Shown one piece after another: positions 565 to 16,278 of a stretch of 23,843 nt of DNA. The DNA is taken from IMG/VR virus record IMGVR_UViG_3300045952_000274, positions 1 through 23,843 of that record. The stretch is one strand, 5' to 3'. A model generated the notes under the pieces. The model was not told where the DNA came from. It did not search any database and worked only from the letters and a program-made list of their open reading frames with translations. The DNA is from a virus. Position 1 is the stretch's first letter. Each line of letters opens with the position of its first letter. The position numbers and the translations under genes were made by a program.

Positions 565-617
565 CGGCGTTTTTCCGCCGAAAAAGATTCCTTTCCTCCG
601 CCCTATGGCGGCGGAGG
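565..617 (-). terminator. Hairpins at the integrase 3' end
   Basis: CCTCCGCC (595-602) and GGCGGAGG (610-617) form a perfect 8-bp stem whose 7-nt loop holds the integrase stop codon. On the minus strand a run of five T (585-581) follows 9 nt downstream. A second stem, CGGCG (565-569) with CGCCG (576-580), comes next. Together these may end leftward integrase transcription. The T-run does not directly abut the stem, so this is not a textbook intrinsic terminator. Confidence 0.4.
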
Positions 618-1502
618 ACGCAAGGCCCAAAAGCGCTCCGCGTCTTCGGGCATGACCAGCTCGACGTAGTTACGCATCAACACGCCGGGGCTGTTGCCCA
701 TCTCGGCCGCTATGCGTGGGAGATTCGGCTCAATCGCCAACCGATAGGAGGCATACGAGTGACGCAGCACATCGTGCTTCCACTGGTAGCACGCTGCCTC
801 TTCGAGATAGCCCCGCTTGCGCCTGAGTGTCATGTAGGATGGAACGACCGGCCCTTGGTCAACGCGATCCAGTGCGAGCCAACAACGCAGGGTCTCGCTC
901 ATCGGCACAATGCGCCTGTGGCGTGTCTTGGCCACCTTCCCGTCAATCACGATGCGCCCCGTTGCCCAATGGACCTTCGACCAGTCAAGGCGTTCGGCCT
1001 CTGATGGACGCAGGCCCCCGAAAAGGCACAGGACGAACCACGGACGAATAGCGCACAGGCACCGGTAGCGGGGACAGCGGCATCCGCCCAGGAGCATGAG
1101 CATCCGTTCCGCTTCGTTGAGGGAGAGAATCGGAGGGGTCTTGGCTTCCACCATCACCCGCTCGATGAATTCGCACGGGTTTTCGGTGATCCACCGTTTG
1201 CGTCTCGCGTAGGAGAAGAGCGACGAGAAATGCCCGAGATCGCTCGCCCGAGTGGCTGGCGACGTGCCATTGCGTAGCGCCAGAATCGCCTCCACGACCT
1301 CGACCGTTATCGCGGTGATGTTCGGATCGTCGTCCAGCCCCAGCTTGCCGAGGTATCGGTTTTGAAACATCCGCAGTTGTGACCCGAGAAGTTTCACATA
1401 CTTGGGCCGTCGGCCGCTCGTGGTCTTCGCCACGAGAAGTTGTTCGATCGCACTTGAGAACGAAGGCGGAATCCGGCTGGGAGAAGAAAAAAACGCTTCC
1501 AT
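603..1502 (-). CDS. int: Tyrosine site-specific integrase
   Basis: This 299-residue tyrosine recombinase should integrate and excise the phage at the adjacent attP-like site. The N-terminal part (about 1-120) fits an SAM-like core-binding domain. The catalytic domain shows R165 in G-G-L-R-P-S-E, K192 in A-K-T, R247 in D-V-L-R-H-S, and the nucleophile Y279 in R-N-Y-V-E-L-V. Two usual histidine positions differ: D244 occupies the first position of HxxR, and N270 (G-N-S-P) replaces the second His/Trp nine residues before the tyrosine. Both are typical of a recombinase subfamily common in Verrucomicrobiota, so the enzyme is probably active. The ATG is preceded by AAGGGA with 8-nt spacing, one of the few good ribosome binding sites here. 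A promoter-like sequence lies beyond the tRNA fragment. Family assignment is firm; host inference is moderate. Confidence 0.95.
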   Translation of the reverse strand: MEAFFSSPSRIPPSFSSAIEQLLVAKTTSGRRPKYVKLLGSQLRMFQNRYLGKLGLDDDPNITAITVEVVEAILALRNGTSPATRASDLGHFSSLFSYARRKRWITENPCEFIERVMVEAKTPPILSLNEAERMLMLLGGCRCPRYRCLCAIRPWFVLCLFGGLRPSEAERLDWSKVHWATGRIVIDGKVAKTRHRRIVPMSETLRCWLALDRVDQGPVVPSYMTLRRKRGYLEEAACYQWKHDVLRHSYASYRLAIEPNLPRIAAEMGNSPGVLMRNYVELVMPEDAERFWALRPPPP

Positions 1503-1699: not shown

Positions 1700-1737
1700 A
1701 TGCCATTGTGGTGCTCTACCAACTGAGCTACGGCCCC
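1700..1737 (-). other. attP: 5' half of tRNA-Ala(GGC); probable attP core
   Basis: Read on the minus strand, 1737-1700 matches tRNA positions 1-38: acceptor strand GGGGCCG, T8-A9, D-stem GCTC/GAGC with loop AGTTGGTA, A26, anticodon stem strand CCACA and the 7-nt loop ATGGCAT with anticodon GGC. The expected partner strand TGTGG is absent. The sequence continues as CGAAAGC, so identity stops at the end of the anticodon loop and no 3' half follows. Tyrosine integrases often cross over in the anticodon loop, so this is most likely the phage attachment core lying next to its integrase. Carrying the 5' rather than the 3' half is the less usual arrangement. The anticodon identity is read from the loop. 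Confidence 0.7.
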
Positions 1738-1752
1738 ACGCACCAAACCACG

Positions 1753-1791
1753 CCACATGAACGCATTACGACAAATCATGTGGAATGTCAA
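1753..1791 (-). promoter_or_regulatory. Leftward promoter with embedded operator upstream of the tRNA fragment
   Basis: On the minus strand a perfect TTGACA (1791-1786) is followed after 17 nt by TAATGC (1768-1763). A start near 1757 would lie about 20 nt before the tRNA 5' end. The 8-bp inverted repeat CCACATGA (1753-1760) / TCATGTGG (1776-1783) places one half-site in the promoter spacer and the other near the start point, the layout of a repressor operator. The -35 match is strong and the -10 is weak. It could drive the tRNA half and, beyond it, the integrase. Confidence 0.5.
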
Positions 1792-1823
1792 ACTGCACTG
1801 TGTTCGGCTCCACCATTAATTTT

Positions 1824-6062: not shown

Positions 6063-6232
6063 CCATCGAAGAGAAGCAGCGACTCTGCGCCCAGGTGAAT
6101 GACCTGATTGCCCGCGCACACCTCGATTTGCCCGATGCCTTGGGCGTCTTGGAGATCGTGAAGTTCAAGATGCTGCGTGACGCCTACGACAAGCGCGGCA
6201 AGACTCTCAGGGAGATTTTCGGAGAAGGATGA
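6059..6232 (+). CDS. Hypothetical 57-aa early protein
   Basis: The ATG at 6059 overlaps the upstream TGA. The product begins M-T-I-E-E-K-Q-R-L and is predicted almost entirely helical (V-N-D-L-I-A-R-A, L-E-I-V-K-F-K-M-L-R), ending L-R-E-I-F-G-E-G. No motif is recognised. It is the last gene before the terminator-like hairpin at 6293 and so closes the recombination part of the early region. The coupled start and uniform charge pattern support a real gene. Confidence 0.5.
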   Translation: MTIEEKQRLCAQVNDLIARAHLDLPDALGVLEIVKFKMLRDAYDKRGKTLREIFGEG

Positions 6233-6292
6233 TTCCCGCGCCCGGCGTCAGCCTGCACCTGTTCAACCGAACCAAGGGGCCATAGGGATTTG

Positions 6293-6326
6293 GCCCGTCG
6301 TACGCAGGACCACCGGGCGCTTTTTT
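6293..6326 (+). terminator. Intrinsic terminator between recombination and replication genes
   Basis: GCCCG (6293-6297) pairs with CGGGC (6314-6318), and six T follow at 6321-6326. The loop is 16 nt, long for an intrinsic terminator, but the T-run is clean. It would end or attenuate the first early transcript before the replication gene. Confidence 0.5.
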
Positions 6327-6341
6327 CTTGCTTGGAACGTA

Positions 6342-6361
6342 TTGCGTTTCGTCATACGCAA
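6342..6361 (+). promoter_or_regulatory. Operator-like inverted repeat ahead of the replication gene
   Basis: TTGCGT (6342-6347) and ACGCAA (6356-6361) are a perfect inverted repeat with an 8-nt spacer. It overlaps the 11-mer TTTCGTCATAC (6347-6357) that also lies ahead of the first early gene. GTCATACGCA here also resembles GTCGTACGCA at 6297-6306 in the terminator. I see no convincing -35/-10 pair. Confidence 0.4.
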
Positions 6362-6380
6362 CAGCAACACAAACCAGCCG

Positions 6381-7570
<1,190 letters not shown>

Positions 7571-7574
<4 letters not shown>

Positions 7575-8023
7575 ACACAACGACAACCTGCCGCATCTGC
7601 GGCGCACCCGTGACCCTGGCCCACGATCAAAGGCTCGCGGAGGCATTGCCGGAACCCTACCACAGACTCGTCGAATCGGTCGCCAAGCGCATCTGCTGCA
7701 ACCGGTGCGCCGATTTTCACCGCGCCCGGCGGGATACCGTCGAGCATCTGGAAAAACTGATGATTCGCGCCCTCGTCCCCGGGAAGGAAGAAATCATCCC
7801 GGCACGACTGGAAACAATCCGCGAAAACGTGACCCGAATTGCGATGACCCTCACCAAGTTGATCTGCGACTATCATCGAAGGCCATTCCTTCCCCAAACC
7901 CACACCATGCTGCTCGACAGGTTGATGGAAAATCCGGCCAAGTGCCGTCGGATCGTTTATGAGTTTGAAGACTTCGTCCGGCCCGACGAAGCTCGCGCAG
8001 TCCGCTCACCATGCGTCGCATGA
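7571..8023 (+). CDS. Zinc-ribbon protein of the replication cluster
   Basis: The ATG at 7571 overlaps the stop of the replication gene (ATGA) and gives 150 residues; nine in-frame codons upstream are less likely. C7-x-x-C10 and C43-x-x-C46 form a probable zinc-binding four-cysteine site. The rest is helical and basic (R-L-E-T-I-R-E-N-V-T-R-I-A-M-T-L-T-K-L). Position directly after the initiator suggests a replication or regulatory partner, for example a helicase-loader substitute. No loader ATPase motif is present, so this stays a guess. The family is not recognised. Confidence 0.65.
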
Positions 8024-13816: not shown

Positions 13817-16278
13817 TATCCCACGAACTCGTGCCGGGTCTGCCGGATGATGTCCAACACGATCCCGCGCCCGCTCCCCGATGAAAGCCACTGGTCGGCA
13901 CCGTGTCGGCTGTCGAAGACCGCGACGTTGACTCCACCACCACCCGGGCCGGGTGGCGCGTTCCCGGCCCGCATCGACTCAAGGTATTCAGGCGTCCAGT
14001 AGCGGGTCGCCTCCGCATCGAAAACAAACTCGCCGCCGTGGACGACCCCGGTGGGAACCCCGGGGCTTGTGCTTCCCGTGTAACCACCGGAAGCGAAGCT
14101 ACCGGAGAGGGCAGCCAGAGCGGCGAGCAAAGCGACGATGCCGATTGCAGCGGCGGCACCGTAGGAACTGATCGAAGTGAACAGCGCACCCGGGGCCTTG
14201 GCCGTTGCCTCCGCAGTCGATGAGGTTACCTCGACGGCCTTGACCGCCAGGCGGCCGACGATCCACTCCGCAAACATCCGTGAGATTGCCTCCACCAGTG
14301 AGGTCGCAATCGTGTTGTAAATGTTCATCAGCGCTTCCCGCCACGTCATCGTCGCCATGATCAGGCCGGTCATGCTCCGAGAAATCCCCTCGACCGCCCC
14401 GCCGATCCCCGCCTTCCAGACGTTCGCCACGTCCATCGCCGTGATGGTCGCCATCTCGCGGATCTCCTTGAAGACAACCCCCCACTGGTCCGCATACGAA
14501 CCCGGGTCCGGCCCCATGCCGAACTGGCGACCCTGCACGGCGGCAAGCTGGCCCCGGTAGGTGTCCAGCCGTGAAAGAATCTGCTCCCGTTCCTGATCGT
14601 CCTTGGCCAAGGCGGCGCGCGCCTCTAACGACTTGACGATCTCCGCCAGGACCCGGGACTCCTCGTTCAGCAGCCGGCTCAGTTCACGGTGCTTTTCAAC
14701 TTCCGTGAGCCTGAAGTCCCCCTCGACCTTGGCCCGCCGCAACTCAATGGCCGCCATCCGTTCGCGGATTTCGCGCTCGTCCTCCAGCAGACCCTTCTTG
14801 GCACTCTGCTTCTTGACGACCTCCGTAGTGGCGTCCAGCTCCTTGCCGATGAGCGGAAGAGTTGCCTCGCGCGTCTTGCGAGCGTCCTCCAGAAGCTTCT
14901 TGAGTTGTTCGACCGCAGTAAGCGGCGTGTCGGACGGCTCCTCCCCACCGAAGACCAAATTCGCGATGCTCTTGTTGCGATCAAAGAACTTCTCGAACTG
15001 TTGCAGGATTTCGAGGCTTTCGGTCAGACTCTCATCCCACGTCCGCGCGGCCACCGGTTCGGTAGCTCCCGTCCCCTCTGCCTGCCAGCGGGCAAGAGCC
15101 ATCCGGGCCGGGGTCGTCATTGCCCCCATGAAGTCGAACACCTTCAGAAGCCCTTCCGCAAAATAGACGATGGCGGCCTTGAAGACGCCCTTGAGAAGAT
15201 TCCCGAAGGTCTGCGCGATGTAACGGAACCGGTCGCCCAGGTAGAGAATCCCGGCCACCATGCCGAAGACGATGTTCTTCACCGCGGCCTGAGCCAGCGT
15301 GTCGATGGTCGCTTGTATCCGGCCGAAGAATTCCACGATGCTCTGTAGCCCGCCTTCCGTGACAAAACTCCACATCTTCGTGGCCGAAGTGCGGATCGCT
15401 TCCATCCCCAGCTCGAACCCGGCGCGGATCGTCAGGTGAATCAGCTCCTCGAAAGTGCCGTCCGTCCACTTCTTGAAACCCAGGTCAAAGGCCGCAGCGA
15501 TCAGCTTCGCAAAATCCTCCCACAGCTTCGCCTTCACGATGGCCTGCATCGCCACCTTGATCTTTTCAAACACCGGCTCGAACGCCACACCCAACGCCTG
15601 CTGCGCAACGTCTCGGATGTTGCTGGCCAGCGTGCGCCAGGTCGTCATCCCGACAAGGCCCGCCTCCTTGAACGCCTTCAGCCGCTCCGTCAGAAATTCG
15701 TAGAGACGGCCCTGCTCGCGCGCCTGCGCAATCTCCTGCGCGTTGATTTGCAGGATGCGAGCGGCAAGGGCGTTGCGGTCAATGTGCCCCTCGATGAGTG
15801 CCCGAGTCTCCTGCAACAACTGCTCGTTGGCGATGCCCAGCCCCGACAATGCCTGCGACATGAGCACCACCAAGTCCACTTGCTTGCGCAGGCTGATCCC
15901 GGCCGAGGTTGCACTGCCCGTCACAGCCTGAAACCCACGCACAAGTTCCTCGAACGTGGCCGGGCTTTCCTTGGCCTTCTGCTTGAGCAGCTCGACGGCT
16001 TGGGCCGACACCCGCAGGGCATCGTTGAAGTCCTTGAAGCGTTGCGGTTGGAAAGTCTTCTGGACCGCCGCGATCCCCAGCCGCGCAGTCTCCAAGGTCG
16101 CGTTGAATTGAAGACCGGCCTTGGCGGCACGAAGAAATCCACTCGCCAACGCCCCCGCACTCACCGCGGCCGCGACCGGGGCCACCAGACTGCGCAGCGA
16201 CCCGGCCACCTTGGCCAGCGCAGCCTGAACCTGGGCCGCACCGTCAACCCGCAGGGTGATCGTTACCGGCTGGCTCAT
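13816..16278 (-). CDS. Tail tape measure protein
   Basis: The 820-residue protein is the length ruler of the tail and is ejected with the DNA. Features are long helical stretches (E-K-A-K-E-S-P-A-T-F-E-E-L type), an N-terminal Ala-rich segment (V-A-A-A-V-S-A-G-A-L-A-S-G), an early L-E-T-A-R-L-G-I region as in tape measures with the T-F-E-E-L-V motif, a coiled-coil middle (about 500-620), and a hydrophobic segment near the end (I-G-I-V-A-L-L-A-A-L-A-A-L). The C-terminus carries the common G-G-Y-T-G ... V-H-G-G-E-F-V-F-D motif. At the usual 1.5 angstrom per residue it predicts a tail near 120 nm. It overlaps both neighbours (ATGA upstream, TAATG downstream) and follows the chaperones, as expected. 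Confidence 0.92.
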   Translation of the reverse strand: MSQPVTITLRVDGAAQVQAALAKVAGSLRSLVAPVAAAVSAGALASGFLRAAKAGLQFNATLETARLGIAAVQKTFQPQRFKDFNDALRVSAQAVELLKQKAKESPATFEELVRGFQAVTGSATSAGISLRKQVDLVVLMSQALSGLGIANEQLLQETRALIEGHIDRNALAARILQINAQEIAQAREQGRLYEFLTERLKAFKEAGLVGMTTWRTLASNIRDVAQQALGVAFEPVFEKIKVAMQAIVKAKLWEDFAKLIAAAFDLGFKKWTDGTFEELIHLTIRAGFELGMEAIRTSATKMWSFVTEGGLQSIVEFFGRIQATIDTLAQAAVKNIVFGMVAGILYLGDRFRYIAQTFGNLLKGVFKAAIVYFAEGLLKVFDFMGAMTTPARMALARWQAEGTGATEPVAARTWDESLTESLEILQQFEKFFDRNKSIANLVFGGEEPSDTPLTAVEQLKKLLEDARKTREATLPLIGKELDATTEVVKKQSAKKGLLEDEREIRERMAAIELRRAKVEGDFRLTEVEKHRELSRLLNEESRVLAEIVKSLEARAALAKDDQEREQILSRLDTYRGQLAAVQGRQFGMGPDPGSYADQWGVVFKEIREMATITAMDVANVWKAGIGGAVEGISRSMTGLIMATMTWREALMNIYNTIATSLVEAISRMFAEWIVGRLAVKAVEVTSSTAEATAKAPGALFTSISSYGAAAAIGIVALLAALAALSGSFASGGYTGSTSPGVPTGVVHGGEFVFDAEATRYWTPEYLESMRAGNAPPGPGGGGVNVAVFDSRHGADQWLSSGSGRGIVLDIIRQTRHEFVG

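Follow-up and report, generated by a model that had tools for sequence, protein, structure and literature searches.

Does the half tRNA-Ala(GGC) gene carried by this virus ahead of its integrase mark the site at which it integrates and, if so, what becomes of the host tRNA gene and of its promoter? The window, by which we mean the whole stretch of 23,843 nucleotides analysed here, is a 23.8-kb linear IMG/VR entry that represents an incomplete genome. Five features of this fragment are relevant to the question.

1763..1791, minus strand: tRNA-type promoter carried by the phage, recognised by its position (TTGACA, 17 nt, weak -10 TAATGC), with a predicted start at about 1756
1700..1740, minus strand: positions -2 to 38 of tRNA-Ala(GGC), i.e. 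the 5' half ending with the anticodon loop, a 41-nt exact match to the host locus L004
1503..1699, minus strand: leader from the tRNA 5' half to the integrase, with no tRNA 3' half, no terminator-like site and no further TTGAC
603..1502, minus strand: tyrosine integrase of 299 aa lacking the N-terminal domain of its long relatives (PF00589, 5.7e-07; phrog_1, 2.5e-26; alignments)
1801..1822, plus strand: tRNA-Ala 3' end (positions 62-76) with 7 nt of its downstream flank, in inverted orientation to the 5' half (21/22 to L004)

The first-pass annotation of this DNA had described tRNA positions 1-38 on the minus strand, with an identity ending at the end of the anticodon loop, and this description proved exact. 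The sequence from 1737 to 1700 on the minus strand (GGGGCCGTAGCTCAGTTGGTAGAGCACCACAATGGCAT) is that of positions 1-38 of tRNA-Ala(GGC), and the identity even extends to position -2 of the intact tRNA-Ala(GGC) gene of L004 (minus 1740-1700, CGTGGGGCCGTAGCTCAGTTGGTAGAGCACCACAATGGCAT); with the intact genes of L002 and L003, it begins at -1. None of 100 shuffled sequences matched the 41-nt segment, even with up to three mismatches. The intact host gene that the annotation proposed to look for exists: among 84,980 species genomes, three contain the exact 38-mer, and all three belong to Verrucomicrobiota and have it in an intact tRNA-Ala(GGC) gene. Its rarity is due to the greater variability of the acceptor stem, since the inner 32-mer is present with at most one mismatch in 137 of the 196 genomes of one Verrucomicrobiota order. 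As the 38-mer is restricted to Verrucomicrobiota genomes, the virus is probably a temperate phage of these bacteria. At the end of the anticodon loop, the shared ATGGCAT is followed by C in the phage, whose sequence past the loop reads CGAAAGCGG, and by the counterpart TGTGG in the host. No tRNA was called in the window by ARAGORN, nor by Rfam at its threshold. The annotation had also stated that a 3' half is missing, which is correct for the sequence that follows the 5' half and has to be amended for the short inverted 3'-end piece at 1801-1822. The identity covers everything between the anticodon loop and the 5' end of the gene (positions -2 to 38), as in tRNA att sites of the anticodon-loop type. 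Profile searches identified phage genes on both flanks, with the integrase on one side and RecT and tail genes on the other, which makes the tRNA piece an attP rather than a host junction. The segment 1700-1740 is presumed to be the identity segment of this attP, with the crossover in or beside the anticodon loop.

The promoter proposed ahead of the tRNA half (TTGACA at 1791-1786, TAATGC at 1768-1763, a spacer of 17 nt and then 25 nt to the tRNA start) is only partly convincing by its sequence: the -35 box is perfect, TAATGC agrees with TATAAT at just two of six positions, and a consensus promoter scan calls nothing at this site. Its position is typical of a tRNA promoter. Among 58 distinct regions upstream of intact host tRNA-Ala(GGC) genes, 54 contain TTGAC 38-62 nt ahead of the gene, nearly all of them at 41-51 nt, and the chance of finding TTGAC in such a 25-nt span is about 1 in 40 (25/1024). 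The corresponding distance is 54 nt in the window, and 46 and 49 nt in two other phages of the same layout (L192 and L193, see below). The phage -35 box is thus believable on position, where it matches the host tRNA-Ala promoters.

The integrase starts 197 bp downstream of the tRNA 5' half on the same strand and possesses all catalytic residues of a tyrosine integrase (R165, K192, R247, N270 and Y279). The usual first H of the HxxR motif is a D (residue 244), and D or N is found there in most relatives of the family alignment. The arm-binding N-terminal domain of the long type (about 400 aa) is missing, a point that the first-pass annotation did not notice: around 115 N-terminal residues of the relatives have no counterpart, and tblastn with their N-termini gave no match upstream of the window integrase. 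Used as a single query against viral contigs, the integrase had no match; alignment-based queries did find relatives.

Is this layout found in other phages? The exact 38-mer is absent from viral contigs, and a scan in which the variable acceptor stem was omitted was needed to find three of them (L192, L193 and L194). L192 (38.7 kb) and L193 (33.7 kb) share with the window a promoter, a tRNA-Ala 5' half that breaks off at the same loop and is not followed by a 3' half, and a same-strand integrase directly downstream; in L193, phage-type genes lie on the side facing away from the integrase. Their integrases, 36% and 40% identical to that of the window, retain the catalytic residues but not the N-terminal domain found in the long relatives. 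In all three phages, the sole TTGAC ahead of the integrase is the one of the tRNA half. The integrase frame of L193 opens already at the ATG of the anticodon loop, and its best start codon, preceded by AGGA, is located about 18 nt past the tRNA half. Grouping the integrases of the three phages in a single clade is unsupported by the tree, yet not rejected (p-AU 0.08). The third contig, L194, was discarded as a case of the same design: its 31 nt of tRNA-Ala (positions 8-38, at 1530-1567) are within a small ORF that immediately follows an unrelated tyrosine integrase, with a different acceptor stem and without a promoter ahead.

Two neighbouring observations are worth recording. L192 harbours two different tyrosine integrases in tandem behind its one tRNA-Ala 5' half (6092-7090 and 7120-8010, minus strand). 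On the reverse complement of L226, a divergent complete tRNA with a GGC anticodon and the G3:U70 pair of tRNA-Ala identity (1315-1385) overlaps the beginning of a short integrase frame, which is open from the anticodon-loop ATG onwards.

How elements of this integrase family insert can be read from integrated relatives in Verrucomicrobiota genomes, in which both junctions are preserved: an intact tRNA gene whose 5' flank is foreign, and a 5' half that has been displaced. On a single contig of G280 (C6), the displaced 5' half of tRNA-Arg(TCT) (positions 1-40) is found at 318-357 and the intact gene, which the integrase adjoins, at 15007-15083. The matching pair of junctions occurs on separate contigs in G351 and G068, and the displaced halves end at positions 38-40. 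In two relatives with an empty site (G713 and G366), the flank upstream of tRNA-Arg resembles that of the displaced half of G280, not that of its intact gene, with scores of 11.5 and 10.5 that both exceed all 500 shuffles. The tRNA-Arg upstream flank of G708 was rejected as a native flank, being element-like: its intact gene shares the element-type flank of the intact gene of G280 (score 16.5; shuffle maximum 7.0), and an integrase fragment match lies beside it. The two junctions and the empty sites together show that elements of this family replace the 5' half of the host tRNA and its promoter; the 5'-half mode is real. What had been proposed from the window, namely an attP used in a 5'-half mode, a hybrid tRNA under an element promoter and a displaced 5' half, is borne out by L192 and L193 and by these junctions. 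In G280, G351 and G068, the integrase is on the side of the intact tRNA and points away from it, and in the window, L192 and L193 it is on the opposite side, behind the tRNA half. The annotation's suggestion to look for lysogens was answered in part, as both junctions were recovered in these three relatives but no lysogen of the window's own type (5' half and integrase on the displaced side) was found among the 320 genomes searched with the integrase. The host tRNA-Ala genes read in two groups displayed ordinary flanks or an ordinary 3'-half neighbour, and no window-type lysogen either.

Taken as a whole, the locus is very probably the attP of a temperate Verrucomicrobiota phage whose attB is the host tRNA-Ala(GGC) gene, with the tRNA rebuilt and the promoters swapped upon integration. 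The sequence identity, its end point, the gene order, the two additional phages, and the junctions and empty sites of relatives are direct observations behind this explanation; this phage's own mode of integration, the exact crossover point and the transcription of the integrase from tRNA promoters are what it adds to them, and would combine as follows. Recombination by the integrase would take place between the anticodon-loop segments of attP and of the host tRNA-Ala(GGC) gene. At one junction, the phage promoter and phage 5' half would be joined to the host 3' half to yield an intact tRNA-Ala whose first 38 nucleotides and promoter are viral. The other junction would bring the host promoter and host 5' half in front of the integrase, which would then be located behind the displaced host tRNA promoter. 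These two products would follow from the place of the integrase behind the tRNA half in all three phages. As long as the phage is free, the promoter destined to make the tRNA would stand ahead of the integrase, and the promoters of tRNA and integrase would hence change places at each integration or excision. The layout is compatible with a coupling of integrase expression to the host tRNA promoter, as tRNA half and integrase share a strand and neither a terminator nor another -35-like site was found between them; such a coupling may be expected.

Only tentatively, and with slightly more doubt than confidence, we extend this to a fully reciprocal exchange, in which the tRNA promoter and 5' half would supply the integrase with its promoter and mRNA leader while the phage is free, and the host with its tRNA-Ala promoter in the lysogen, where the host promoter would take over the integrase. 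Such an arrangement would be associated with integrases that have lost the N-terminal domain, and it may have evolved repeatedly within a single clade. The window integrase belongs to a well-supported clade (100/98, 22 rows), most members of which are found at tRNA-Ala or tRNA-Val genes. The common mode of this clade at the same tRNA-Ala gene is a 3' half accompanied by a long integrase (L224, L227, L230, L231, L246 and the viral L251). On the integrase tree, a minimum of 12 switches between the tRNA halves and of 11 switches of side is required, these half and side labels being assigned in part by tRNA orientation alone. Within the clade of the window, short integrases are mostly paired with a tRNA half on the integrase-distal side, an association that is suggestive, with too few independent pairs for a formal test. 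In addition, L222 and L247 contain short integrases that diverge from a tRNA-Val 3' half, so the loss of the N-terminal domain is not confined to 5'-half sites.

Other readings of the tRNA half have to be weighed against integration at the anticodon loop. It could be a dead relic, left by an imprecise excision beside a shortened and inactive integrase in a phage that no longer integrates. The missing N-terminal domain and the rearrangement nearby, of which the inverted tRNA 3' fragment is the trace, would agree with such a history, which is nonetheless improbable, because three short integrases that have diverged to 36-40% identity all retain their catalytic residues, the tRNA half and the position of the promoter being the same in each case, and because the match to present-day hosts is perfect over the 38 nt. 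A different kind of att site is used in tRNA-dependent lysogeny, where a short core is combined with a complete phage tRNA (PMC10865867). Applied to the window, attP would merely share a core with the host tRNA without rebuilding it, and a complete phage tRNA-Ala would complement the loss. No complete tRNA of the same isotype was found within the window; since the window is a fragment, such a tRNA could lie in its missing part. We consider this reading very unlikely in view of the 41-nt identity reaching the 5' end of the gene and the tRNA-like -35 box, as opposed to a core of about 10 bp, of the lack of a complete tRNA in the L192, L193 and L194 records as well, and of the related elements that do rebuild their tRNA.

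The half could alternatively be transcribed and act independently as a tRNA fragment or a decoy RNA, for instance in leader control of the integrase, instead of being an att site. The closeness of the integrase and the opening of the L193 frame at the anticodon-loop ATG speak for it. Against it, the segment shares its end point, the anticodon loop, with known att segments, relatives have matching junctions, and the 5' half folded with its downstream leader is no better than shuffles, so that we regard an RNA role in place of the att role as extremely unlikely. A leader that would complete a tRNA-like fold was likewise rejected (z 0.22 versus shuffles; 16.5 bits with Rfam, below its cut-off). 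A leader role in addition to the att role could exist.

The preferred explanation, an attP that rebuilds the host tRNA-Ala, has against it the poor -10 box, the failure to find a window-type lysogen among the 320 genomes and the integrases of the junction-bearing relatives, which adjoin the intact tRNA and diverge from it. It also leaves one feature unaccounted for, namely the inverted 3' piece at 1801-1822. It is located just past the promoter, 60 bp beyond the 5' half, and none of 100 shuffles reached its 21/22 match. No such piece is present near the att sites of L192 and L193. As it is inverted and holds just 15 tRNA nucleotides, it is unable to rebuild a tRNA and does not refute the attP reading. 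It may be left over from an integration in the ordinary 3'-half mode of the clade, or stem from a fold-back duplication. Inverted tRNA pieces occur a second time in this integrase family, in L046, where a tRNA-Leu and a 3'-half copy, whose downstream flanks are similar, lie inverted on either side of an integrase (300-453 and 1930-2052).

Most tRNA-targeting integrases carry the 3' part of the gene, as the first-pass annotation noted, and 5'-half carriers are a known minority: 159 of 3,919 islands in the Islander database carry a 5' tDNA fragment (PMC4383910). As in the window layout, the 5' part of these islands restores the tRNA and a displaced 5' fragment is left behind, and crossover in the anticodon region is listed for them. 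The window differs in being a phage attP from Verrucomicrobiota, with a short integrase that immediately follows the promoter and 5' half, and with promoters that would swap. In archaea, integrases of the pTN3 type (Cossu 2017, as reviewed in PMC8371274) recombine at the 5' half of the tRNA gene, which is thereby placed under the promoter of the integrase; the review describes this as seldom encountered in bacteria. The likeness is close: the 5' half is the att segment, the recombinant tRNA is made from the element's promoter and part of the integrase is placed behind the tRNA promoter. There, however, the att site is inside the integrase gene, which is split on integration, whereas that of the window stays whole, its att segment ending 197 bp upstream of the integrase start. 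In ICEKp1, the integrase is transcribed from a tRNA promoter when integrated and from another promoter when free (PMC13023037). This use of a host tRNA promoter resembles the state proposed for the window, although the adjacent tRNA-Asn of ICEKp1 keeps its promoter while the window phage would change that of the tRNA itself. The Akkermansia phages Chambord, Moulinsart and Chantilly (ON453894-6) encode related integrases (26-29% identity) and their records begin or end in an anticodon loop; they differ by an ordinary 3' half beside a long integrase.

The arrangement of the window is most likely the mirror image of the usual arrangement of tRNA and integrase. A layout in which integration exchanges the tRNA and integrase promoters appears to be new with regard to the systems compared, which do not include the cases of Williams 2002, reportedly the primary survey of tRNA sublocations with rare bacterial cases.

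To conclude, our results enlarge the rare 5'-half class by several cases, from phages and from genomes, in a phylum whose phages have been little studied, and reveal that one integrase family uses both tRNA halves. They offer a natural way to ask whether tRNA 3' halves are usually preferred because of promoter constraints. During lysogeny, the host tRNA-Ala(GGC), found once in most of the genomes having it, would depend on a viral promoter, and the gene deciding on insertion or release would sit behind the tRNA promoter of the host.
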